The notes below the pieces were generated by a model, which saw only the letters and a program-made list of their open reading frames with translations, had not been told where the DNA came from and made no database searches. This document shows, one piece after another, positions 43,920 through 57,646 of a stretch of DNA of 64,000 nt (its first letter is position 1; each line of letters starts with the position of its first letter). This DNA is from Desulfovibrio ferrophilus (lineage in GTDB: Bacteria; Desulfobacterota; Desulfovibrionia; Desulfovibrionales; Desulfovibrionaceae): the NCBI RefSeq assembly GCF_003966735.1, contig NZ_AP017378.1, positions 2,624,905 through 2,688,904 of the forward strand, given 5' to 3'. The position numbers and the translations under genes were made by a program.

Positions 43920-45341
43920 TCAATTCCCGACAAATGAAGACCGGCGGGGCCGCGACACACCGTATTTCTTGAGCAGGGCATAGAGTCGCGCCCTGGACAA
44001 ACCCGACATTTCAATGGCCTTCGCCACCTTCCAGCCCGCGTGGCGCATCACTTCTTCCAGATAGAATCGCTCCAGGTCAGCCAAATGACTGTCCCGAAAA
44101 TCCTTGAGACTCGGAAACTCGCCGGGCTCGATGCTCCAGACCGGTGCCTGAGCTGACATCTCCTCGCCCAGCCCGGCCCGGGCCAAAGCCACCCGCACAT
44201 TGGTGGGCAGGTGCCTGGACAGCAGGTTTGGCTCTCCTTCGGCTGAAGCCAGGGAATGCTCCATGGCCCCCATCAGCTCGCGGACATTGCCCGGCCAACT
44301 GTAACGGTGCAAGGCATCCAGAAAGTCCTTGGACATGCCCTTGGGTACAATGCCCATGGCTCCGCAAAAACGCTTCAGAAAATGACCGGCAAGAACCTTC
44401 ACGTCTCCATCCCGATCCGCAAGGGACGGCAACGAGATGGAAAACCCCCGGATACGGAACAACAGATCTTCGCGGAACAACCCCTGACGGACCCTGTCCT
44501 CCAGGTCCCGATTTGTGGCGGCCAGCAGCCTGAAGTCACTGGTCAGCTCCTTGGAACCCCCCACAGGGCGAAAACGGTGATCCTGCAATACCCGCAAGAA
44601 CGCCCTCTGCACCACCAGAGGCAATTCCCCCACTTCATCCAGGAACAGAGTGCCCCCATCGGCCTGATGCACCAGCCCTCCATAACGCCGATCAGCTCCG
44701 GTAAACGATCCCTTCTCATGGCCGAAGAGCATGGATTCCACAAGATTCTCGGGCAGGGCGGCACAGTCCACAACCACAAAAGGCCCGGCCTTGCGGCGGC
44801 TGTTGTCATGGATAGCGCGGGCCACGAGTTCCTTACCCGTGCCCGTGTCTCCGGTAATGAGGACCGCAGCGTCGCATCCTGCGCCCTGAGCCGCCCGGCG
44901 CAGGCAGGCCTTGATGGCCGAGCTTTCACCCACGACTCCGTGCTCGGCCAGTAGTTTGTGTCCGCTTTCCTTCTTGTTGCGACGGTATTCCACCGCCCGT
45001 TCCACCGGCAGCCTGATATTGTTCATGGTCGGTGGCTTGGTGATGTAGCTCCAGGCCCCAGAGCGAATGGCCATTTCCGCTCCGTCGGGATCACCCGCTC
45101 CTGTCAGGATGATCACCTCGGGTGCTCCTGGCCCTTCACGGAATCGAGGCAGGGCCTCCAGGCCATTGCCGTCGGGCAGACGCACATCCAGGATGACCAG
45201 CTCGTAGCCATTGCCGCGTGCCATTTCCAAGCCCTCGACCAGGGTTGTTGCCCCGTCCGCCGAATGCCCCATGGAGGCCAGCACCTGGCTCAGGGCATTC
45301 ACAAGCATGGTGTCATCATCAACAATAAGAATATTGGCCAT
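43920..45341 (-). CDS. NtrC-family sigma-54-dependent response regulator
   Basis: The protein of about 473 residues has a receiver (Asp52 in [16 protein letters not shown] Lys kept), AAA+ domain ([28 protein letters not shown]) and a Fis-type HTH ([20 protein letters not shown]). The loop that touches sigma-54 reads GSFTGA, a common variant of GAFTGA. The ATG at 45341 shares one base with the stop of the hybrid kinase gene, showing translational coupling and partnership. The pair is divergent from the hdr locus, with 426 bases between, and may regulate it. I could not find a convincing -24/-12 site there. Confidence 0.92.
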
Positions 45342-47251
45342 CAATCGCCCCCCGGTTCAATGGCATCGCGCACAGCAAGGCCCAGCGCGTTGGTGCTGTA
45401 GGGTTTCTTCAAAAACCCAATGCCCATTTCCTTGGCCTTTTCAGGATTGATCAACTCACTGAAGCCCGAGGTCAGCACCACCCGCGTTTCAGGATGTTCG
45501 CTCATGATACGCCGGGCCAGATCCAACCCCGTCATGCCGGGCATGGTCACATCCGCCAGCACCAGGGCATAGCCGTCAGGCTGTTCATGGAACAGGTCAT
45601 AGGCCGCCTGCCCGCTGGCACAACACGTCACCTCATACCCCAGTAATTCAAGGGCCATGGAAGTACTCGTACGCAAGGCCGCCTCATCATCCACAAACAG
45701 GATCTGCCCACTGCCTCGCATCGAACCAACATCGGGCGCCAGGACCGATGCTGGCATAACCATGGAACTGCGCGGCAAAAGCACATGAAAGGCCGTGCCC
45801 ACACCGGCCTTGCTCTCCAGGCGCACGGCCCCACCATGGCGGGCCACGATATTATGCACCACTGTCAGCCCCAGCCCCGTGCCAATACTCTTCTTGGTCG
45901 TGAAGAAGGGATCGAAGGCCCGCTCAAGATGTTCCTCGGGCATGCCCTGTCCGGTGTCCTTGACGGTCAGCATTACGTAACTCCCTACTTCGGCATCCGG
46001 GAACAACGTGCGCATGGACTGTTTCATTTCCACGGCCTGCACCGCCAGGGTCAATGTCCCTCCACTCTCGCGCATGGCATGACCCGCGTTGGTTGCCAGA
46101 TTCATGATCACCTGATGGATCTGCGTGGGGTCCGCCAGAATGACGTCGTCTTCGGTTTTCACGTCATCCACAATGGCGATGGTGGCAGGCAGTGAGGGCC
46201 GCAGGAACTTGATGCACTCCTTGCAGATACTGGACAGCCGGAACAGGACGGGGTCGTCGGCTTCATGCTTGCGTGACAGGGAGAGGATCTGGTCCACCAG
46301 TTCACGAGCCCGGTTTGCTGCTTCCAGAATCTCCGAGAAGCTCAGGCGTGCCGAACTGCCCTCCGGAAGCATGGTCTGCCCCAACTCGGCATGCAGGATG
46401 ATCGGTCCCAGAATATTGTTGAAATCATGAGCGATGCCTCCCGCCAAAGTGCCTATGGCTTCCATTTTCTGGGCCTGCCTGAGCTGTTTTTCCAACACGG
46501 CCACGTGGGTTACGTCACGCCAAACACTGACCCATCCCAAGGGTACTCCGAACCGTCCGCGAATGGGTGACACCGTCTTTTCCACCTGAATCACGCGCCC
46601 GTCCTTGCGGGTATTGAAGGTCCGGCCTGTCCAGGCATCTCCCTCATCCATGGCTGCCCTGATGAGCTTCAGGGATTTCTGCTGATGAATCCCCTGATAC
46701 AACGTCTCCCCGGACTGCCCGCGGACCTCACTTTGGGAATAGCCGGTCATTTCCTCAAAGGCCTGGTTCACGTAGCGAATGCTGAACGTGGTATCGTAGA
46801 TAACCACGGCCTCCACGGCCTGCTCAATGGCCGTGGCCATGCGTAACCGTTCATGCACGATACGCTGCTGCCCGGTGACATCGGTCACGAACACGGCAAG
46901 GGCCGTGATCTTCCCGTCCTGCTCCAGCACGGGATGAATCACCGTATCCAGCACATTGCCGGAGGTGGATACGTCCTCATAATACTGAGCCGCACCCGAC
47001 TCCATGGCTCTCTTGGCCATGGCACGCCTGCGCTCTGCCGCCTCGCCAGGAAAATGGTCATAGATGCAACTGCCCACGAACTGGGGCAGAGGAATTTCGA
47101 GCCTGCGAGCTACGGCCTCGTTGGCTGCGATGATGGTTCCGTCGGGCGCAATGAGCAGCGCAAAACTGGTCGCTGTAGCCAGATTGGCCCAGTCCTCGCT
47201 TCGCGACGGATTTTCCCTCGCCTTGAACCCTGATGATTTGGAGCTCGCCAT
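45341..47251 (-). CDS. hybrid sensor histidine kinase (PAS-PAS-HisKA-HATPase-REC), cytoplasmic
   Basis: The 636-residue protein has no membrane segment. Order: PAS (about 25-145), PAS (about 145-265), HisKA (GTLAGGIAHDFNNILGP), HATPase_c (DTGQGMPEEH, GTGLGLTVVHNI) and a C-terminal receiver (LFVDDEA, ALVLADVTMPGMTG, FLKKPY), all with key residues intact. It likely senses an intracellular signal such as redox state through PAS and passes phosphate to the co-encoded NtrC-type regulator. The ATG follows AAGGAA. Hybrid kinases usually need a further phosphotransfer domain, which is not encoded here. Confidence 0.92.
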   Translation of the reverse strand: MASSKSSGFKARENPSRSEDWANLATATSFALLIAPDGTIIAANEAVARRLEIPLPQFVGSCIYDHFPGEAAERRRAMAKRAMESGAAQYYEDVSTSGNVLDTVIHPVLEQDGKITALAVFVTDVTGQQRIVHERLRMATAIEQAVEAVVIYDTTFSIRYVNQAFEEMTGYSQSEVRGQSGETLYQGIHQQKSLKLIRAAMDEGDAWTGRTFNTRKDGRVIQVEKTVSPIRGRFGVPLGWVSVWRDVTHVAVLEKQLRQAQKMEAIGTLAGGIAHDFNNILGPIILHAELGQTMLPEGSSARLSFSEILEAANRARELVDQILSLSRKHEADDPVLFRLSSICKECIKFLRPSLPATIAIVDDVKTEDDVILADPTQIHQVIMNLATNAGHAMRESGGTLTLAVQAVEMKQSMRTLFPDAEVGSYVMLTVKDTGQGMPEEHLERAFDPFFTTKKSIGTGLGLTVVHNIVARHGGAVRLESKAGVGTAFHVLLPRSSMVMPASVLAPDVGSMRGSGQILFVDDEAALRTSTSMALELLGYEVTCCASGQAAYDLFHEQPDGYALVLADVTMPGMTGLDLARRIMSEHPETRVVLTSGFSELINPEKAKEMGIGFLKKPYSTNALGLAVRDAIEPGGD

Positions 47252-47677
47252 GGCGTTTCCTTCCGCTCTGAGCGGTGCCGGGAGTCCTCTAAGTGTCCAC
47301 TATGGGAAGAAAATGCACCCGATGTCAACACCACGAAAATCCGAGGAAAACACTCGGAACGTCTTCCTGCACAAGACAATTCCAACCTGATCTTCCCTGT
47401 TGGAAGGCAACCCGCCGATCCTGACCCTGTGGTGCTTCTGATCTTTTCTGAAATATCCAACATTTCCAGATGGTCATACAGCTCGATAAAATCTTGTCAG
47501 ACAAGACAAATCTTGTGGAGCAAGACATATTTTCCCCTGTTCCCCAAGGGGAATGAAGGAACACTTTGGCTAAAACCCCCCGAAAAGACGGACAATTCCA
47601 ACGACGGGTACGCTTCTTGTTCTAGAGAGGTTGTCACGCCCGTTGCGGGCGAGGCGCAGGCAGATGCGGAGAGAATC
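47252..47677. promoter_or_regulatory. divergent promoter region between hybrid kinase and hdr locus, with repeated inverted repeats
   Basis: Three sites fit TCTT(G/C)-N5-CAAGA: 47362-47376 (one arm mismatch), 47492-47506 (TCTTGTCAGACAAGA) and 47511-47525. The last two start 19 bases apart. A 12-mer GACAATTCCAAC occurs at 47375-47386 and 47591-47602. A palindrome TTCCCCAAGGGGAA lies at 47540-47553. The layout suggests binding sites for a dimeric regulator controlling one or both divergent operons. No clear sigma-54 or sigma-70 hexamers could be fixed by eye. Confidence 0.6.
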
Positions 47678-47947
47678 GTGACGCGCAGGCGCTGGGACCC
47701 CAACATCAAGGCCGAAGTCGTGCTTCAGGGGATCAAGGGCACCCCGGTGTCGATCCTGTGCGAGCGCTACGGCATCTGCCCCAGCCAGTACTACAAATGG
47801 CAGGACAAGCTGACTACGGGCCTGCCCCGGCTGTTTGAAGACGGGCGCAAGGCCCGCACCCAGGCCGACCTGCGGCGCGAAAATGCGCGACTCAAGAGAC
47901 TCGTCGGCGAACTGACCCTGGCTCTGGCCGAACACTCGACCAGATAA
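47678..47947 (+). CDS. small HTH protein of the IS3-type transposase OrfA family, head of the hdr locus
   Basis: From the GTG at 47678 (CGGAGAG 5' of it) the product is 89 residues: RRRWDPNIKAEVVLQGIKGT, VSILCERYGICPSQYYKWQD, then a leucine-zipper-like LRRENARLKRLVGELTLAL. This matches the HTH of IS3/IS911 OrfA proteins. There is no OrfB, no terminal inverted repeats and no target duplication around it, and hdrA starts 24 bases downstream on the same strand. It may be a captured DNA-binding protein acting as a local regulator, or the remnant of an insertion sequence. Longer upstream in-frame starts are possible but lack a better ribosome site. Confidence 0.65.
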   Translation: MTRRRWDPNIKAEVVLQGIKGTPVSILCERYGICPSQYYKWQDKLTTGLPRLFEDGRKARTQADLRRENARLKRLVGELTLALAEHSTR

Positions 47948-49999: not shown

Positions 50000-50422
50000 A
50001 TGGGATCCTTTGAACCAACCATCGTGGCCTTTGTCTGCAACTGGTGCACCTACACCGCGGCGGACCTGGCGGGAACCTCCCGCATGGTCCAGCCGCCCAA
50101 CCTGAAGCTGATCCGCATGATGTGCACCGGCATGGTGGACCCCAAGTACGTAATCAAGGCCCTGCTCGCCGGAGCCGATGCCGTACTCATCAGCGGCTGC
50201 CATCCGGGTGACTGCCACTACATCAACGGCAACTACAAGGCCCGGCGGCGGGTGAAGCTCCTGAAGGAGTTGCTGACCCAGTTCGGCATCGACGAACGCC
50301 GGGTCAAGCTGACCTGGATCGGAGCCAGCGAGGGTAACGAATTCGCCGAAACCGTCAATGATCTGGTGGCGGAAGTCCGGGCTCTGGGGCCTGGCGAAGC
50401 CAGGCAGTCAGCCATTCTCTGA
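50000..50422 (+). CDS. mvhD: MvhD-family iron-sulfur protein
   Basis: The 140-residue protein shows the MvhD cysteine pattern (FVCNWCTYTAADLAG, RMMCTGMVDP, SGCHPGDCHYINGN), expected to carry one [2Fe-2S] cluster. In methanogens MvhD links the hydrogenase to HdrA; in bacteria it can link HdrA to other dehydrogenases. It lies 30 bases after hdrA and 16 before the FrhB-like gene, with AAGGAG in front. No hydrogenase subunit is encoded near, so it probably transfers electrons from the FrhB-like protein or an external partner to HdrA. Confidence 0.93.
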   Translation: MGSFEPTIVAFVCNWCTYTAADLAGTSRMVQPPNLKLIRMMCTGMVDPKYVIKALLAGADAVLISGCHPGDCHYINGNYKARRRVKLLKELLTQFGIDERRVKLTWIGASEGNEFAETVNDLVAEVRALGPGEARQSAIL

Positions 50423-50438
50423 CCGGGAGGGAGGAATC

Positions 50439-51584
50439 ATGGCAACCACAGCACGAATCGAAGTCGGACCCGACGGCCCCCTGCGCGCTATCCAGGGCCT
50501 GCTCGTCCAGCTTCTGGAACAGAACGAGGCAACGGCGGTGCTCACGCCCCGTCACATGCCCCTCAAGGGAACAGTCATGCCCGCCCTGATCAGCGACCCC
50601 GCCGAAATGGACCAGGCCGACCCCTTGTCCCCGGCCTTTCCGCTGAACGCAGCCAAAATGGTCTCGCGCCTGACCAAGGGCTCCGGCGGCAAACCTGTTG
50701 CCGCCGTACTCAGACCCTGCGAAATCAGGGCTTTCATCGAACTGGTCAAGCTCAACCAGGGCAGCATGGACAACGTCCTGCTCGTGGGGGTCGACTGCAT
50801 GGGCGCGCTGACCAATATCGACAATCAGCAATACTCCACCCAGGGCGAACCCAAGGCCATGAGCGAGCTGTTCATGCGCCAGGCCCTGGAGGGCCAGACC
50901 GAGATGAGCGGGTTCACCGTGGCCAAGGCCTGCCAGGCCTGCGAACACCCCGTGCCCGAAGGCGCGGACCTAATCCTGGGCCTGTTCGGATCGGACCCGG
51001 GCAAGGAAATCCAACTTATCGCGAACACCGCTCGCGGGGAGGGCATCCTGACCCGCATGAACTACTCCGACGCGCCGATCAACGGTGCGCGCGACAAGGC
51101 CATCAGCCAGGCCATCGCCAAGCGCGAGGCCTTCCGCGACGCCATGTTCGAAGTCACACGCGCAGCCACGGACACCCTGTCCGGACTGGCCGAACACCTG
51201 TCGTCCTGCATCAATTGCTACAACTGCCGGGCGGCCTGCCCTGTCTGTTACTGCAAGGAATGCGTCTTCCTGACCGATGTCTTCGACTACAAGCCCGATC
51301 AGTACATCGGCTGGGCCGAGAAGCACGGCTCCCTGAAGATGCCCACGGACACGGTCTTCTTCCATCTGACACGGCTGGCGCACATGAGCACCTCGTGCGT
51401 GGGTTGTGGGCAATGCTCCAATGCCTGCCCCAACAACGTGCCAGTAATGGAGTTGTTCCGCACCGTATCCCACAAGACGCAACAGGCCTTTGGCTATATG
51501 CCGGGCATGAACCCGGACGAAGCTCCGCCCATGACCGTGTTCCGCGAGGATGAATTCGCAGAAGTCACAGGTGGATCGCACTAA
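50439..51584 (+). CDS. FrhB/FdhB-like flavin iron-sulfur protein with C-terminal ferredoxin
   Basis: The protein of about 381 residues resembles the coenzyme F420 hydrogenase/dehydrogenase beta family (VAAVLRPCEIRAFIELVKLN, LLVGVDCMG) and ends in a two-cluster ferredoxin-type module (CINCYNCRAACPVCYCKEC; CVGCGQCSNACP). Family members bind FAD and exchange electrons with F420, NAD(P)H or ferredoxin. Because F420 is unusual in this group, a nicotinamide or another carrier is more likely, but this is inference. GGGAGGGAGG precedes the ATG at 50439. It is the best candidate in this locus for the electron-input module. Confidence 0.87.
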   Translation: MATTARIEVGPDGPLRAIQGLLVQLLEQNEATAVLTPRHMPLKGTVMPALISDPAEMDQADPLSPAFPLNAAKMVSRLTKGSGGKPVAAVLRPCEIRAFIELVKLNQGSMDNVLLVGVDCMGALTNIDNQQYSTQGEPKAMSELFMRQALEGQTEMSGFTVAKACQACEHPVPEGADLILGLFGSDPGKEIQLIANTARGEGILTRMNYSDAPINGARDKAISQAIAKREAFRDAMFEVTRAATDTLSGLAEHLSSCINCYNCRAACPVCYCKECVFLTDVFDYKPDQYIGWAEKHGSLKMPTDTVFFHLTRLAHMSTSCVGCGQCSNACPNNVPVMELFRTVSHKTQQAFGYMPGMNPDEAPPMTVFREDEFAEVTGGSH

Positions 51585-51609: not shown

Positions 51610-54600
51610 ATGAACAGGAAGCACTATGCAGCATTGGTGGTCGGCGCGGGCATCGCGGGGATTCGCTCCGCGCTGGATCTGGCCGAATCCGGGCACAAGG
51701 TGGCACTCATCGACAAGCGCCCCGGCATCGGCGGCATCCTGACGCAGCTGGATCATCAGTTTCCCAGCGACCATTGCGGTATGTGCAAGATGCTGCCCCT
51801 GACCAGCCGGGATTCCTCCAGCCAGTTCTGCATGCGCAAGGGGCTGTTCCACAAGAACATCGATATTCTTACCGGAACCGAACTGGCCTCGCTGACCGGT
51901 GACCCCGGAAAGTTCCGGGCAACCCTCAAGCAGCATTCCTCCTTTGTTAACCCCGAGCGCTGCATCAGTTGCGGTGAATGCGCCAAGGTCTGCCCGGTCT
52001 CCGTACCCAGCGAATTCAACGCGGGACTCTCTCAGCGCACGGCCATCCATCTGCCCGTGCCCCACGCCATCCCCAACCACTACGTGGTGGACCTGGAACG
52101 CTGCACCCGCTGCCGGGCCTGCTTCGAGGCCTGCCCCACCGGGGCCGTGGACTTCAAGGACGACGCTCGCCCGGATTTCAACGTCCTGGCTGCTGCAGGT
52201 AAGAGCATCGGCCAGCAACTGACAGGCTGGTGCGACAAGCTGCATCTGCCTGCTTCCCTGGCTGAAACAACCGACAAGGCCCGTGAACTGTTGGAAAGCA
52301 CACCCATGCGGCTCTTGCTGTTGGACCTGACCACCCCGGATATCGACCACGAAAAGGTCATGCGCCGCGGACTGGAACTCTACCCGGATCTGCGGGTCAT
52401 TCTGATCATCGATCCCGACCAGCAGGACCTGGCCGAGCGTCTGTTGGATGAAGGGGCACGTGACTATCTGGTCACCCCTCTTGCCGCACAGGTCAAACGT
52501 TGGCTGGACAAGATCTACATCCGCATGATGTCCGACAACAGGCATGAGCTGGAGGTGGGGTCCGTGGTCCTGGCGGGCGGATTCGAATGCTTCGATCCGG
52601 CCGAGGGAGGACAGCTCTGGGGCTACGGAACCATACCCGGCGTGATGACCGCCGTGGAATTCGAGCGCCTGTGCTCGGGCACCGGCCCTTCGGGCGGACA
52701 ACTGTTGCGACCGGATGGAAAGCCCGCCCGCAAGATTGGCTGGTTGCAATGCGTGGGTAGCCGTGACGTGAATCGCAACGCGGATTTCTGCTCGTCCATC
52801 TGCTGCATGTTCGCCATCAAGGAGGCCATGCTGGCCAAGCGCATGAGCAAAGGCGAGGCCGAAACCACCATCTTCTACATGGATATGCGCACCTACGGAA
52901 AGGATTTTCAGCGCTACCGGGACCGTGCCGAACAGGAACAGGGCGTGCGCTTCATACGCACCCGCCTGCATTCCATTGAGGCCGACCCGAATGTGGACGG
53001 CGTGCCCGTGCGCTATGTGGATGACAAGGGCGAACTGCAAACCGAAGTCTTCGATCTGTTCGTGCTTTCCACCGGGGCCAGACCCCCGGCAAAGATGGCC
53101 GAACTGGCCGAGGCTGCGGACATCGAAACCCTGGACACCGGCTTTGCCCTGACCGGCGAATTCCAGCCCGCGCGCACCTCGCGCCTGGGTGTATTTGCCG
53201 CCGGCGCCTTTGGTCAGCCCAAGGACATTGCCGACTCCGTCATCCAGGCCGGAGCTGCATCTCTGGGCGCTGCCAGAACCTACAAGATTCACTCCCCCCC
53301 GCGTGAGGAACAGCCCGAGCCCATTCCCGAATATCGGGATGTCACGCGAGAGGAGCCCAGGATGCTCATCGCCCTGTGCACGGACTGCCCGACTCTGACG
53401 GCCAATGTGGATATGGAATCCCTGGCTACCAAGCTGGGAGGGCTGTCCACGGTGGTCCATGTGGCTTCCATCAGCAACGCCTGTGGCGGCGCTGGCTGGG
53501 GTGAAATCCAAACTCTGGCCGAAAAGCATCTGCCCAACCGCATCCTGATCGGGGCCTGCATGCCCTACGCCTATGTCCCCCGACTGCGGGAGCTGGGCGC
53601 ACGCATCGCCCTTGATCCGGCCTTCATGGACGTGGTGGATATCTACACCCCGACCTTCCCCGGAGCCATGGAGTCCGGCGACGCTCTGGAGCGCGAGGTT
53701 TACACCTCCCTGACCATGGCCGCCGTTCGCCTGGCCGATGCCGACCCCTCGCCCCTGCTCGGCAAGTCACCCGTGGTGCCGCGGGCCCTGATTGTGGGCG
53801 GCGGATTGGGTGGCATGACCTCGGCCATGGCTCTGGCGGACCAGGACTACGAAGTCTGTCTGGTGGAACGCACTGAACATCTGGGCGGTCTAGCCATGAA
53901 CGTCCACTCCACTCTTGGCGGCGGCGATGCCCGCGGCTTCATGGAAGACCTGGTGGATCAGGTGGAGCGACACCCCAACATCAAGACCTTCATGAACTCA
54001 CGCATCATGCTCTCCATGGGCCGGGCCGGACGCTTCATGAGCGCCGTGGCCGCAGACGAGGGCACAGCCGTGACCCTGGAACACGGGGTCACCATCCTGG
54101 CCACGGGCGGACGAGAGGTCATGCCCGATTCCTACGGCTACCGGGTGCACAAGACCGTGCTCAGACAGAGCGAATTGGAGGCCGGACTGAACGATGGTTC
54201 CTTGGACACTGGGGCACTCTCGGGTGTGGCCATGATCCAGTGCGTTGAATCACGCGAGGAACCTCGCAACTATTGCTCGCGAGTCTGTTGTGCCTCGGCA
54301 CTGAAGAACGCCTTGACCCTCAAGGAACGCAACCCGGATCTGCCGGTCTACGTCTTCTACCGCGACATCATGAGCTACGGCTTTACCGAACGCTTCTTCA
54401 CCGAGGCCCGCAAGAAGGGCGTGATCTTCATCCGCTACGAGCCCACGGACAAGCCCCGGGTGACTTTCGATGACGAGCATCGACCCACAATCACGGCAAC
54501 GGACCCCATCCTCGGGCGCGATATCGCCATCACCACGGACCTGCTGGTGCTCTCCGTGGGCATTGACCCCGCCGGCACAGAAAACATGTCTGAGATCTTC

Positions 54601-55035
54601 AGTGTGGAACGCAATCGCGACGGATTCTTCCAGGAAGCCGAATCCAAGTGGCGCCCCGTGGAGTTCCTGCGCCAAGGCATCTTCCTGTGCGGGGTCTGTT
54701 CCAGCCCGCGCAACATGTCCGAAACCATTGCCTCGGCCAAGGCCGCTGCCAGTCGCGCCATGCGCATCCTCTCGCAGGAGACCGTTATCGGGGGGCGCAT
54801 CAAGGCCGAGGTTCGCGCCAGCCTGTGCTCCACCTGCGGACGCTGTGTGCCCGCCTGCCCCTACGGAGCGAGATCTCTGGACCTTGAAGCAGGAGTGGCC
54901 GTGGTGGATGAACTGCTCTGCCAGGGCTGTGGCTCATGCGCAGCAGTCTGTCCTAACAGCGCAAGTGTACTCACCGGATTCAAGGACGGTCAGGTCATGC
55001 GTGAAATCGACGCGGCCCTGTCCGCCCTGAACTGA
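51610..55035 (+). CDS. hdrA: double HdrA-like protein with an inserted receiver-like domain
   Basis: The 1141-residue protein is two HdrA-like units in tandem. Unit 1 has FAD site LVVGAGIAGIRSALDLAESG (about 9-28), ferredoxin clusters at Cys118/121/124/128 and Cys165/168/171/175, then residues 186-312, which are absent from the 665-residue HdrA, then LEVGSVVLAGG and CSSICCMFAIKEA. The insert reads as a CheY-like fold: NVLAAAGK, LLLLDLTTPDID (Asp239), DLRVILIIDPD, GARDYLVTPL (Thr289 where Lys is usual). Unit 2 has an HdrA N-terminal domain (LCTDCPTLTANVDME), FAD site LIVGGGLGGMTSAM (about 728), no inserted ferredoxin, and C-terminal clusters near 1073-1115. It is co-transcribed with hdrC and hdrB. 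Confidence 0.9.
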   Translation: MNRKHYAALVVGAGIAGIRSALDLAESGHKVALIDKRPGIGGILTQLDHQFPSDHCGMCKMLPLTSRDSSSQFCMRKGLFHKNIDILTGTELASLTGDPGKFRATLKQHSSFVNPERCISCGECAKVCPVSVPSEFNAGLSQRTAIHLPVPHAIPNHYVVDLERCTRCRACFEACPTGAVDFKDDARPDFNVLAAAGKSIGQQLTGWCDKLHLPASLAETTDKARELLESTPMRLLLLDLTTPDIDHEKVMRRGLELYPDLRVILIIDPDQQDLAERLLDEGARDYLVTPLAAQVKRWLDKIYIRMMSDNRHELEVGSVVLAGGFECFDPAEGGQLWGYGTIPGVMTAVEFERLCSGTGPSGGQLLRPDGKPARKIGWLQCVGSRDVNRNADFCSSICCMFAIKEAMLAKRMSKGEAETTIFYMDMRTYGKDFQRYRDRAEQEQGVRFIRTRLHSIEADPNVDGVPVRYVDDKGELQTEVFDLFVLSTGARPPAKMAELAEAADIETLDTGFALTGEFQPARTSRLGVFAAGAFGQPKDIADSVIQAGAASLGAARTYKIHSPPREEQPEPIPEYRDVTREEPRMLIALCTDCPTLTANVDMESLATKLGGLSTVVHVASISNACGGAGWGEIQTLAEKHLPNRILIGACMPYAYVPRLRELGARIALDPAFMDVVDIYTPTFPGAMESGDALEREVYTSLTMAAVRLADADPSPLLGKSPVVPRALIVGGGLGGMTSAMALADQDYEVCLVERTEHLGGLAMNVHSTLGGGDARGFMEDLVDQVERHPNIKTFMNSRIMLSMGRAGRFMSAVAADEGTAVTLEHGVTILATGGREVMPDSYGYRVHKTVLRQSELEAGLNDGSLDTGALSGVAMIQCVESREEPRNYCSRVCCASALKNALTLKERNPDLPVYVFYRDIMSYGFTERFFTEARKKGVIFIRYEPTDKPRVTFDDEHRPTITATDPILGRDIAITTDLLVLSVGIDPAGTENMSEIFSVERNRDGFFQEAESKWRPVEFLRQGIFLCGVCSSPRNMSETIASAKAAASRAMRILSQETVIGGRIKAEVRASLCSTCGRCVPACPYGARSLDLEAGVAVVDELLCQGCGSCAAVCPNSASVLTGFKDGQVMREIDAALSALN
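52174..52524 (+). other. CheY-like receiver domain embedded in the double HdrA (residues about 189-305)
   Basis: Five alternating strand/helix segments follow the receiver plan: NVLAAAGKSIGQQLTGW, PASLAETTDKARELLE, MRLLLLDLTTPDIDHEKVMR, DLRVILIIDPDQQDLAERLL, GARDYLVTPLAAQVKRWLDK. The strand-3 Asp (Asp239) is kept, but the N-terminal acidic pair is Ala and the strand-5 Lys is Thr289. Confidence 0.7.
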
Positions 55036-55052: not shown

Positions 55053-55619
55053 ATGACCCGGACAGCGATCCCCGTCACTCACCAGGCCGACAGCGACATT
55101 GCCCCGGTGCGCGAAATGGTGAGCGCCTGCATGCAATGCGGGACGTGCAGTGCATCGTGCCCCAATGCCGAGGCCATGGACATGACGCCCCGACGCATGT
55201 GGCGCCTGACACTGCTGGGCCAGCAGGACAAGGTCTTCGACAGCACAACCTTCTGGATGTGTTCCAACTGCTACTCGTGCAGCCTGCGCTGCCCGCGCGG
55301 TCTGCCTCTGACCCGAGCCATGAACGCCTTAAAGCGCATCGCAGCCCAACACGGTGATAAGGGCCTGGCCCGCAAGGGAGCCTTCTACCACACGTTCATG
55401 GACAATGTGCGGCGCCACGGACGAGTCCAGGAAACCGAGCTGATGCAACGCTGGATGATGACCATGAAGAGCCCCGCCCTGGCCCTGCAATTCGCACCTC
55501 TGGGCCTGAAGCTGATGGGCAAGGGCAAGGTGCACCTGACCGCCCCGGCATCATCCCAGGAAGGCAGACTGGAGCCATTGTTCCAAAAGGCCGCCGAAAT
55601 GGAGGGCCGCCATGAGTAA
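55053..55619 (+). CDS. hdrC: heterodisulfide reductase subunit C-like iron-sulfur protein
   Basis: The 188-residue protein has two [4Fe-4S] motifs of the HdrC type, CMQCGTCSASCPN and CSNCYSCSLRCPRG, in the N-terminal half, followed by a helical C-terminus (ARKGAFYHTFMDNVRRHGRV). HdrC passes electrons from HdrA to HdrB. AGGAGG precedes the ATG. The gene overlaps hdrB by 8 bases. No membrane anchor is seen, so the complex is soluble. Confidence 0.94.
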   Translation: MTRTAIPVTHQADSDIAPVREMVSACMQCGTCSASCPNAEAMDMTPRRMWRLTLLGQQDKVFDSTTFWMCSNCYSCSLRCPRGLPLTRAMNALKRIAAQHGDKGLARKGAFYHTFMDNVRRHGRVQETELMQRWMMTMKSPALALQFAPLGLKLMGKGKVHLTAPASSQEGRLEPLFQKAAEMEGRHE

Positions 55620-56571
55620 CGACACCGCGCAGGCCAGCCCTGCAACCATGAAGAAACAGATCAAGTACGCCTATTATCCCGGCTGCTCACTCACGGGCAC
55701 GGCCGTGGAGTTCGACGTCAGCACACGCGCCTTGCTGGCGCGCCTGGGCGCAGACGTGCAGGACATCCCCGACTGGACCTGCTGTGGAGCCAGTGCCGGG
55801 CAGGCCGTTGATGAACTGCTGGCCTTTGCCCTGCCCGCCCGCAATCTGGCCCTGGCCGAACGTGATCTGGCCGGGCGTGATGTGCTGGCACCGTGCAGCG
55901 CCTGTTATCTGAACCTACTGGCCGCTCGTGAGGAGGCCCGTGCAGACCGCTCCCTGTATTCTCGCATCGAAGAAGTGCTCTCCGCAGAGAACCTGCCCTG
56001 GGATAACTTTGCCGAAGTCCGTCACCTGCTGGACGTGTTGGCCTTTGACGCAGGCCCCGAATCCATTGCCGGTCAGGTCAGCCACTCTCTGGAAGGATTC
56101 AGCATCGCGCCCTACTACGGCTGCCAGACACTGCGCCCCTATGCCCAGTTCGACGACCCGGAACGCCCCGTAACCATGGAGCCTCTGCTCGAAGCCACGG
56201 GCGCAACGGTCCATGTCTGGAGCAAGGGCGCACGCTGCTGCGGAGCCTCGCTGGCCACTACACACCGTGCTGCAGCCCTGCCACGCATCCAGGAAATTCT
56301 GCAAGCCGCCGATGGCGCGGACGCCATCGTCACGGTCTGCCCCATGTGTCAGATGAATCTGGAGAGCTTCCAAAAGCAGGCCGGGATCAGCGACCCCGTG
56401 ACCATTCTCTATCTGCCCCAATTGTTGGGGTTGGCCATGGGCCTGTCCCAAAAGGAACTCAACATCGACAAGAACCTGTCCGTGACAGGCGGGTTCATCC
56501 AGAAGTTTACGGCCGGGCCGCCACCGCCCGCGCCCGAAGAGGAAGGAATCGCGACCGGCGAGGCCGGCTGA
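55612..56571 (+). CDS. hdrB: heterodisulfide reductase subunit B-like protein
   Basis: The 319-residue protein has two complete CCG motifs: YYPGCSLTG ... DWTCCGASAG ... APCSACYLN, and YYGCQTLRP ... ARCCGASLAT ... VCPMCQMN. Both match the CX31-39CCX35-36CXXC pattern that holds the non-cubane [4Fe-4S] clusters used to reduce disulfides in methanogens. In sulfate reducers the physiological disulfide is thought to be DsrC-related or another small thiol compound. The C-terminal 35 residues are Pro/Gly-rich. It overlaps hdrC and ends the Hdr gene set. Confidence 0.94.
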   Translation: MSNDTAQASPATMKKQIKYAYYPGCSLTGTAVEFDVSTRALLARLGADVQDIPDWTCCGASAGQAVDELLAFALPARNLALAERDLAGRDVLAPCSACYLNLLAAREEARADRSLYSRIEEVLSAENLPWDNFAEVRHLLDVLAFDAGPESIAGQVSHSLEGFSIAPYYGCQTLRPYAQFDDPERPVTMEPLLEATGATVHVWSKGARCCGASLATTHRAAALPRIQEILQAADGADAIVTVCPMCQMNLESFQKQAGISDPVTILYLPQLLGLAMGLSQKELNIDKNLSVTGGFIQKFTAGPPPPAPEEEGIATGEAG

Positions 56572-56692: not shown

Positions 56693-57646
56693 ATGTTCAA
56701 GGACATCATCTTAGCAGTAACTCCGTCCGAAGTGTGCCAGTGCGCGGCCGACGCGGGCTTCGCGTTCGCCAAGAAGCACGAATCCAACCTGGCCATGATC
56801 CATGTCTGCGGACTGCCGTCCCATGGTTGGGGATCCATCGAACACATGATGCCGTCCGGCGAGGTGGATAAGATCAAGGCCGGCGTGGAAAAGCATTATG
56901 CCAAGCACCTGGCTGAGCATGAGAATTGTCAGGTCACGGTCGTTCCAGGCATTCCGCACTCCGAGATCCTGCGTCTGGCGCGCAAGAAGAATGCGGACCT
57001 CATCGTCATGGGCTGCTGCACCAAGGACGACCTGCACCGCCGTGCCAAGATGTGGGGTGTGGCCGGCTCAAACATCGAACGCGTCACCCAGAAGGCGCGC
57101 TGCCCAGTGATGATCGTGGCCCGCGAGGTGCCCGAGGAACGGATGCAGTTCGACAGCATTGTTGTCGCCACCGACTTCTCGTTCCAGGCCGAATGCGCCA
57201 TAGGCTACGGCGGTCAGCTGGCCCGCCAGTACAAGGCCGCCCTGCACATCTTCACCGTTCTGGACATCCCGCAGGGACATGATGCGCCCTCGCAGGAGGA
57301 GATCGAGGAAGGCATCGCCGCGGCCAAGGCCCGTATGGAAAAGGAATTCGGTCCGCGCCTGGAAGGTATCCGTGAGGTCAGTTACGAATGTTGGGAGGGC
57401 GTGCCCAGCATGGAGATCCTGAAGTACGCCCGCATGCAGAAGGCGGACCTGATCCTGATGGCCCACCACAGCAAGGAAAAGGACCCCGAGGAAGCCTACC
57501 TCGGTTCCACTGTGGCCCAGGTGGCGCTCAACGCCAGCTGTCCCACCATAAGTATCAACCGCCACTTCGACCTGCGCTGCGGCCTGTTCTATGACCAATC
57601 CGGGGCCGTGACCAGCGAGGAACCGGCCAAGGAAACTGCAAGCTGA
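56693..57646 (+). CDS. tandem universal stress protein (two Usp domains)
   Basis: The 317-residue protein holds two Usp domains (about 1-150 and 155-300). Domain 1 opens FKDIILAVTPSEVCQCAADA and has LIVMGCCTKDDLHRRAKMWG; domain 2 opens FDSIVVATDFSFQAECAIGY and has LILMAHHSKEKDPEEAYLGS. The nucleotide-binding glycine pattern is degenerate in both, so ATP binding is doubtful. It follows hdrB by 121 bases on the same strand; co-expression with the Hdr locus is plausible. A hairpin follows at 57682. Confidence 0.88.
   Translation: MFKDIILAVTPSEVCQCAADAGFAFAKKHESNLAMIHVCGLPSHGWGSIEHMMPSGEVDKIKAGVEKHYAKHLAEHENCQVTVVPGIPHSEILRLARKKNADLIVMGCCTKDDLHRRAKMWGVAGSNIERVTQKARCPVMIVAREVPEERMQFDSIVVATDFSFQAECAIGYGGQLARQYKAALHIFTVLDIPQGHDAPSQEEIEEGIAAAKARMEKEFGPRLEGIREVSYECWEGVPSMEILKYARMQKADLILMAHHSKEKDPEEAYLGSTVAQVALNASCPTISINRHFDLRCGLFYDQSGAVTSEEPAKETAS

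Follow-up and report, generated by a model that had tools for sequence, protein, structure and literature searches.

Gene Content of the Locus

The window, the whole stretch of 64,000 nucleotides of the Desulfovibrio ferrophilus genome that was analysed, contains an operon of hdr-type genes in which a double HdrA of 1141 residues, labelled HdrA4 in this analysis, carries a foreign domain beside its inserted ferredoxin (Table 1). Upstream lie a divergent kinase gene and the gene of an NtrC-type regulator; a similar arrangement is found by BLAST in relatives, with the regulator only in L014 and L016 (L numbers denote individual loci), and in the window the kinase/σ54 regulator pair probably controls transcription. 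Within 10 kb of the two other HdrA regions of the same genome (at ~0.816 and ~2.207 Mb), no kinase ATPase was detected. A small open reading frame on the forward strand (47429-47947), which we take to resemble an IS3 OrfA/helix-turn-helix protein, ends ~25 bp before the gene of the 665-residue HdrA. A σ54 promoter upstream of the window operon was considered and found not convincing when compared with simple shuffles (P 0.05 for the window, 0.01 for L017); σ54-like sites of the CGGCACAATTCTTGAG type recur upstream of hdrA in L011, L012, L013, L017, L056, and L064, which are mostly close relatives, and are weak by shuffles except in L017.

Table 1. Genes, domains, and residues of the hdr locus, in coordinates of the window.
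Feature	Position	Strand	Remarks
NtrC-type σ54 response regulator	43920..45344	-	
PAS-PAS histidine kinase with receiver, divergent	45341..47251	-	
HdrA, 665 aa	47972..49969	+	Without insert
MvhD/FlpD	50000..50422	+	
FrhB/FdhB-type iron-sulfur subunit	50358..51584	+	Start codon uncertain
HdrA4, double HdrA (type II-like) with receiver insert, 1141 aa	51610..55035	+	Reading frame intact
First FAD/thioredoxin-reductase-type domain, N-terminal part	51610..51939	+	Residues 1-110
Inserted ferredoxin domain	51940..52158	+	Residues 111-183; two CxxCxxCxxxC motifs
Inserted receiver domain (pseudo-receiver)	52171..52536	+	Residues 188-309
Position of the metal-binding acidic pair	52195..52200	+	Ala196-Gly197
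Phospho-acceptor position	52324..52326	+	Asp239, kept
Position of the conserved Lys	52474..52476	+	Replaced by Thr289
Helix 5/linker	52498..52539	+	Residues 297-310; PWLDKxxxRxxSD in the Desulfovibrionaceae clade
Rest of first FAD domain	52546..53319	+	Residues 313-570, including Glu352 and Lys404
Second HdrA half	53347..55023	+	Residues 580-1138
HdrC-like	55053..55619	+	Below NCBIfam cut-offs
HdrB-like (CCG domains)	55612..56571	+	Below NCBIfam cut-offs
Tandem universal stress protein	56693..57646	+	Recurs after hdrB in relatives

HdrA4 as a Bifurcation-type HdrA

The first module of HdrA4 follows the plan of an HdrA, in which the chain passes from the FAD domain into a two-cluster ferredoxin and back to the FAD domain, and a second thioredoxin-reductase-type module is present in the same chain, as in type II HdrA. 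Scores of HdrA4 against the NCBIfam models NF040770, NF041778, and NF041891 (642.5, 494, and 477.1 bits) lie under their cut-offs of 1100, 1400, and 1300, as do those of the 665-residue HdrA of the window. The inserted GltD domain that marks type III HdrA (HdrL) is not seen in HdrA4, whose insert matches PF00072 only. The cysteines of the inserted-ferredoxin motifs are invariant (alignment A2), and a predicted model of residues 1-580 shows the HdrA fold (8rwn, 5odh, and others) around the insert, with pLDDT 85.1. Glu352 and Lys404 align with E356 and K409 of the solved HdrA 5odc, the residues that characterize bifurcating HdrAs, for which a role at the FAD is given in the text excerpted from PMC12054007. 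Because both residues are so aligned and are invariant in all 56 rows compared (56/56), the first FAD site of HdrA4 looks competent, and the protein may be expected to take part in bifurcation.

A Receiver Domain Inserted in HdrA4

An earlier note on this DNA had placed a CheY-like receiver at 52168-52545, between two landmarks of the HdrA chain. The landmarks GAVDFKDDA and LEVGSVVLAGG are separated by an extra segment in HdrA4, and the 665-residue HdrA reads FDQTEQSLDLEVGSIILATG without it; the presence of the segment thus stands, and its borders are refined to ~52171-52536 (residues 188-309). The solved HdrAs 5odc, 8rvu, and 9sfi align with HdrA4 as far as residue 183-187 and then again from residue 312-313, and in HdrA4 the second cluster motif of the ferredoxin domain leads straight into the insert. 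Its lack in these three structures, in the 665-residue HdrA, and in nine homologues rules out that the segment is an ordinary part of the FAD domain of typical HdrA proteins, and its occurrence in 67 family rows rules out an assembly artefact.

Searched alone against Pfam, the insert has PF00072 as its sole match (E 1.5e-5), at 25.5 bits, below the gathering cut-off of 30.2 bits. Against PDB sequences, the 60 matches listed of 86 are all receiver-containing proteins or constructs (best E 2.5e-6 among the matches listed). AlphaFold2, with 67 homologous inserts as the alignment, predicts the strand-helix order of CheY in a (beta-alpha)5 fold (pLDDT 85.9, pTM 0.82); since most sequences of this alignment are canonical receivers, the model is partly theirs. 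With this model, every one of the 50 PDB entries that Foldseek lists contains a receiver, and VIA-align gives as tied best folds NtrC1 (4l4u; Z 18.3, rmsd 2.1, 132 residues aligned) and NtrX (5m7o; Z 18.2), in agreement with the receiver plan read earlier from the letters. The insert is not a product of chance, because 67 of the 76 family rows carry it and 64 of these 67, the window copy included, match PF00072 at E ≤ 1e-4 (best 1e-35). No plasmid relatives of the insert were found at E ≤ 1e-5. Profile matches and fold prediction together support the assignment of HdrA4 residues ~188-309 to a CheY-type receiver inside an HdrA.

Family Sample and Origin of the Insert

A scan of genome contigs yielded 79 loci, 76 of them with an open reading frame that spans the insert site; L075, L076, and L084 were dropped as having no such frame, and L087 as another fusion. 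With the window added, the sample comprises 76 rows, 67 that carry the insert and nine that do not. In a tree built without the insert columns, by a quick method, with some long branches and rooted on Cloacimonadota rows, the 67 insert rows form one clade (value 95), the nine rows without insert fall outside it, and 14 rows form a clade of their own (value 100), here called the Desulfovibrionaceae clade, for which 7 of 13 database records bear the family name and the others were placed by the tree. We infer that the family of the window genome is the one that gives this clade its name. Because the insert rows are monophyletic, a single insertion is the simplest reading, and the receiver most likely entered HdrA once, at the point where the inserted ferredoxin returns to the FAD domain.

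Genomes were further scanned with a ferredoxin plus receiver profile, which detected the fusion in 15 of the 395 phylum genomes and 34 of the 149 family genomes (in the latter 35 matches, of which 29 loci other than the window were read). As only the best candidates per genome were scored (7 for the phylum, 18 for the family), misses are possible, and on these sequence counts the fusion is patchy but not rare. Dereplication across the overlapping sets reduced the Desulfovibrionaceae clade from 43 to 35 rows and the canonical members from 64 to 60.

Loss of the Active Site in the Desulfovibrionaceae Clade

The earlier reading of the window active site holds at each position that it named: the acidic pair is lost (Ala196-Gly197, or Ala and a gap in one other alignment), the phospho-acceptor Asp is kept, and the Lys has become Thr; a further loss is found at the usual Ser/Thr position, which is Ile267. 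With four of the five residues gone, the window copy is not a catalytically complete receiver, and the combination of receiver homology and predicted fold with missing active-site residues makes it a pseudo-receiver by the criteria that a review of bacterial pseudo-receivers provides in its excerpted text (PMC12632262).

This state is exceptional in the family. All five catalytic residues (DD, D, T/S, K) are present in 51 of the 67 insert rows; the 16 non-canonical rows are the 14 of the Desulfovibrionaceae clade together with L052 and L077, so that canonical receivers make up 51/53 rows outside this clade vs. 0/14 inside. The further samples, which overlap with the 67-row set in organisms, gave canonical receivers in 11/11 loci of the phylum and 0/29 of the family. 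Among the 35 dereplicated rows of the Desulfovibrionaceae clade none is canonical: the second acidic residue is never acidic (two rows are gapped there), 18 rows have Asp at the first, 23 keep the phospho-acceptor Asp, and 27 the Lys. Conservation of Asp239 equivalents, which the note had proposed as a check, is seen as part of an intact site in nearly all rows outside the clade and in part of the rows within it. Of the two roles that had been offered for the domain, the pseudo-receiver fits the window, and the members of the wider family, with their canonical sites and the kinase-type genes nearby, are likely to be phosphorylation-dependent switches.

Selection on the Receiver and Conservation of Helix 5

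In receivers, helix 1 is the kinase-binding site and helices 4-5 form the output. The canonical members have a mean receiver-body conservation of 0.80 vs. 0.55 in the Desulfovibrionaceae clade, and helix 1 (residues 200-208) stands at 0.80-0.98 in the former vs. 0.17-0.71 in the latter. The order is reversed in the helix 5/linker core (residues 297-310), which is conserved at 0.79 in the Desulfovibrionaceae clade vs. 0.46 in canonical members. Its motif, PWLDKxxxRxxSD, is poorly conserved in canonical rows; the window copy has Arg for the Pro. In the 35 dereplicated rows of the clade, W298, D300, K301, R305, S308, and D309 are conserved at 0.94-1.00, and this frozen helix 5 marks a surface of interest on the window receiver.

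Nonsynonymous rates were compared in 12 hand-chosen pairs (7 canonical, 5 of the Desulfovibrionaceae clade). In all seven canonical pairs, the receiver dN is below that of the FAD part 313-570 and that of the second half, and in only two of the seven is it below that of the N-terminal FAD part (residues 1-110); in these sequence comparisons strong purifying selection acts on the commonest form of the insert, the complete receiver. The five pairs of the Desulfovibrionaceae clade all have a receiver dN above that of FAD 313-570, with a receiver dN/dS of 0.18-0.38 in the four computable ones.

The window insert could also be read as a decaying, functionless relic, a reading to which the active-site losses lend themselves, as does the fast evolution of the receiver body (dN 0.19 vs. 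0.06 for FAD 313-570 in the pair of the window and L015). We consider it very improbable, given a dN/dS of 0.18 in that same pair, a preserved domain length, and the six nearly invariant residues of helix 5 and linker. The window domain, whose clade lost the phosphorylation site while helix 5 and the linker froze, is therefore probably a fixed pseudo-receiver, and a docking or spacing role exerted through helix 5 would be likelier than a switch.

Kinase and Receiver Genes near the Insert Loci

The core gene order of the insert loci is HdrL (an HdrA with a GltD insert) or a plain HdrA, followed by MvhD, an FdhB-like subunit, the receiver HdrA, HdrC, and HdrB, the last two not being detected in every locus. 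The profile used to search for kinase-type ATPase genes was derived from seven kinases and three receiver-ATPase proteins encoded in these loci. It found 51 such genes in 342 kb of flanks of 66 insert loci vs. 7.0 expected from the density of Pfam HATPase_c in the genome of the window (76 in 3.72 Mb); as related genomes are not independent, this excess is descriptive and carries no P value. Of the 35 loci outside the Desulfovibrionaceae clade with at least 1.5 kb of downstream sequence, 20 have a kinase-type gene on the same strand whose start lies no more than 2.5 kb downstream, and 15 have none. Where the flank is at least 2.5 kb (50 insert loci), a kinase-type gene is present in 35 and lacking in 15, and 11 of the 50 have neither a kinase-type nor a separate receiver gene. 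Upstream kinases occur in 7/11 loci of the Desulfovibrionaceae clade, to which BLAST adds one in L012 and one in L013.

When the ten neighbours were scanned with Pfam, seven proved to be HisKA-HATPase kinases with PAS, HAMP, or GAF domains and three to be receiver-HATPase proteins. Three of the ten (L035 4534-6804, L055 12140-14461, and L061 10248-12560) contain CxxCH, a haem c-binding motif, in their sensor part and possibly have a haem c sensor; two of these three match the Mcp40H-20 sensor model at E 2.9e-5 and 6.8e-4, both below its cut-off. A soluble PAS kinase is encoded after hdrB in L044, L046, L068, and L072, where the gene beyond it has the opposite orientation; in L039 a kinase likewise comes after hdrB, with a small gene of the same strand behind it. 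By gene calling and profile, none of these five, which are among the 20 loci counted above, showed any other receiver gene within the fetched locus.

Of the three closest homologues that lack the insert, two, L073 (Myxococcales) and L069 ("Deltaproteobacteria bacterium"), encode downstream a kinase-type protein with PAS and HATPase domains but no HisKA detected, together with a stand-alone receiver, identified by Pfam in L069 and by our own profile in L073. The third, L071, as well as L080 and the five Cloacimonadota rows (7/9 of the rows without insert), have neither a kinase-type gene nor a separate receiver in flanks of 0.4-6.5 kb. A search for further orthologues without insert in the phylum of the L073 genome (11/282 genomes) returned L073 and ten distant matches of 34-38% identity; nine of these regions yielded an HdrA-like open reading frame in seven (not in L118 or L124) and a single kinase-type gene, on the opposite strand in L117, so that they neither help nor harm the argument from separate receivers.

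Other receiver genes occur about these operons. In L104 (7707-9017) and L050 (11983-13296), the universal stress protein after hdrB has a canonical receiver between two Usp domains, which shares 66-67% identity with the HdrA4 receiver of its own locus and up to 70-71% with those of other loci; being as close to other loci, it would, if copied from its neighbour, have been copied long ago. A stand-alone canonical receiver of 130 residues lies downstream of usp in L012 (13133-13522), L013 (13020-13409), L056 (13008-13397), and L064 (13038-13427), operons in which the HdrA receiver is degenerate, and a stand-alone receiver lies just upstream of hdrL in L024 (1033-1488), L051 (1157-1558), L054 (1201-1722), and L065 (1225-1620).

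The neighbourhood bears on what the kinases act upon. In L035 and L055, the kinase lies beside a receiver-ATPase protein and in L023 and L070 beside an NtrC-type regulator, and in many loci such neighbouring receiver genes could be the target of the kinase. The receiver of HdrA might accordingly be a structural or docking module in all members, with the kinases directed at other regulators that control transcription of the operon, as the NtrC-type regulators and other receiver genes near the kinase in many loci would allow and as the retention of the domain without its phosphorylation site in the Desulfovibrionaceae clade would suggest. We think this unlikely: the five active-site residues are intact in nearly all other rows, helix 1 is conserved in canonical members, most parts of the HdrA frame evolve faster than their receiver (residues 1-110 excepted), and five loci have a kinase and no other receiver gene detected within the fetched locus. 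Information might instead flow in reverse, with the receiver, as a phosphate sink or allosteric input, informing the kinase of the redox or loading state of the Hdr complex. The kinase-type genes and receivers near these operons are compatible with such a route, and CxxCH in the sensor part of three of the ten scanned proteins hints at redox sensing; we nevertheless hold it to be quite improbable, as no output partner was identified and as it would leave unexplained why the Desulfovibrionaceae clade kept the fold but not the site.

Proposed Role of the Inserted Receiver

Flavin-based electron bifurcation is central to the energy conservation of anaerobes, and we know of no described bifurcating enzyme that is controlled by two-component signalling inside its own chain. 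The reading that we prefer, with a probability of roughly 0.55, is that the insert, placed next to the ferredoxin domain of a bifurcation-type HdrA, was ancestrally switched by phosphorylation and is in the window a pseudo-receiver that serves as a fixed docking element. In the canonical relatives, kinases would phosphorylate the equivalents of Asp239, and the resulting change of state in helices 4-5 would change how readily ferredoxin or a partner subunit reaches the inserted ferredoxin, and the Hdr complex could thereby switch its electron flow with no need for transcription. The phosphorylation site has been lost from the Desulfovibrionaceae clade, to which the window belongs, and helix 5 and the linker have become frozen there, leaving a domain that probably acts at the same place in docking or spacing. 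A wider proposal, which we put forward tentatively and at somewhat less than even odds, is that two-component phosphorylation directly controls a family of Hdr complexes in sulfate reducers and their relatives, in which a receiver in the bifurcating subunit, charged by neighbouring kinases, some with a haem-type sensor, gates electron flow at the inserted ferredoxin within seconds, and that the Desulfovibrionaceae clade dropped the switch and kept the scaffold. As nature provides both complete and degenerate versions of one insert, comparing them offers a way to learn what the receiver does.

Comparison with Known Systems

Among the literature matches listed, which cover few subscription papers, no description of a receiver within HdrA was found. 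Related themes are the substrate-specific detection of an HdrA2BC set in D. multivorans (PMC5109826, in excerpt), the control of the adh-hdr operon of D. vulgaris by a response regulator at the level of transcription (PMC3333781, in excerpt), and an iron-sulfur-binding receiver, the subject of PMC7078487.

Canonical relatives of the HdrA4 receiver carry a MTAYATVETAVEAMK stretch, which is presumably NtrC-like, and NtrC-family receivers (NtrC1 4l4u, NtrX 5m7o) are the closest folds among the matches listed; NtrC-family proteins, however, have an AAA+ activator as output, whereas the output of HdrA4 is an oxidoreductase and the active site of the window copy is lost. Bacterial pseudo-receivers resemble the window copy in having a receiver fold without active-site residues, the second acidic residue being the one most often lost (PMC12632262, in excerpt); the window domain differs in sitting within an electron-transfer enzyme.

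The HdrA4 of locus VIII of Desulfobacterium autotrophicum HRM2, where tandem hdrL/hdrA and fdhB accompany hdrA4, hdrB, and hdrC in a similar gene order, is possibly an orthologue of the window HdrA4; unlike for the window protein, no receiver is mentioned in the excerpted text (PMC2702500). Type II HdrA of methane-metabolizing archaea shares with HdrA4 two thioredoxin-reductase-type FAD modules in one chain, and the residues aligned to E356/K409 are kept in the first half of HdrA4; the word "receiver" occurs 0 times in the main text of PMC12054007. Type III HdrA (HdrL) is like HdrA4 in carrying a whole foreign domain beside the inserted ferredoxin (PMC12054007 and PMC2702500, in excerpt), but there it is GltD, with NAD(P)H chemistry and placed before the second cluster motif, whereas HdrA4 has a signalling domain after that motif. 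The inserted ferredoxin domain is described as the place of ferredoxin reduction, with the suggestion that the nearby GltD of type III could block ferredoxin access (PMC12054007, in excerpt), and by analogy with this suggestion the receiver, when phosphorylated, could open or close the access of ferredoxin or the docking of a partner.
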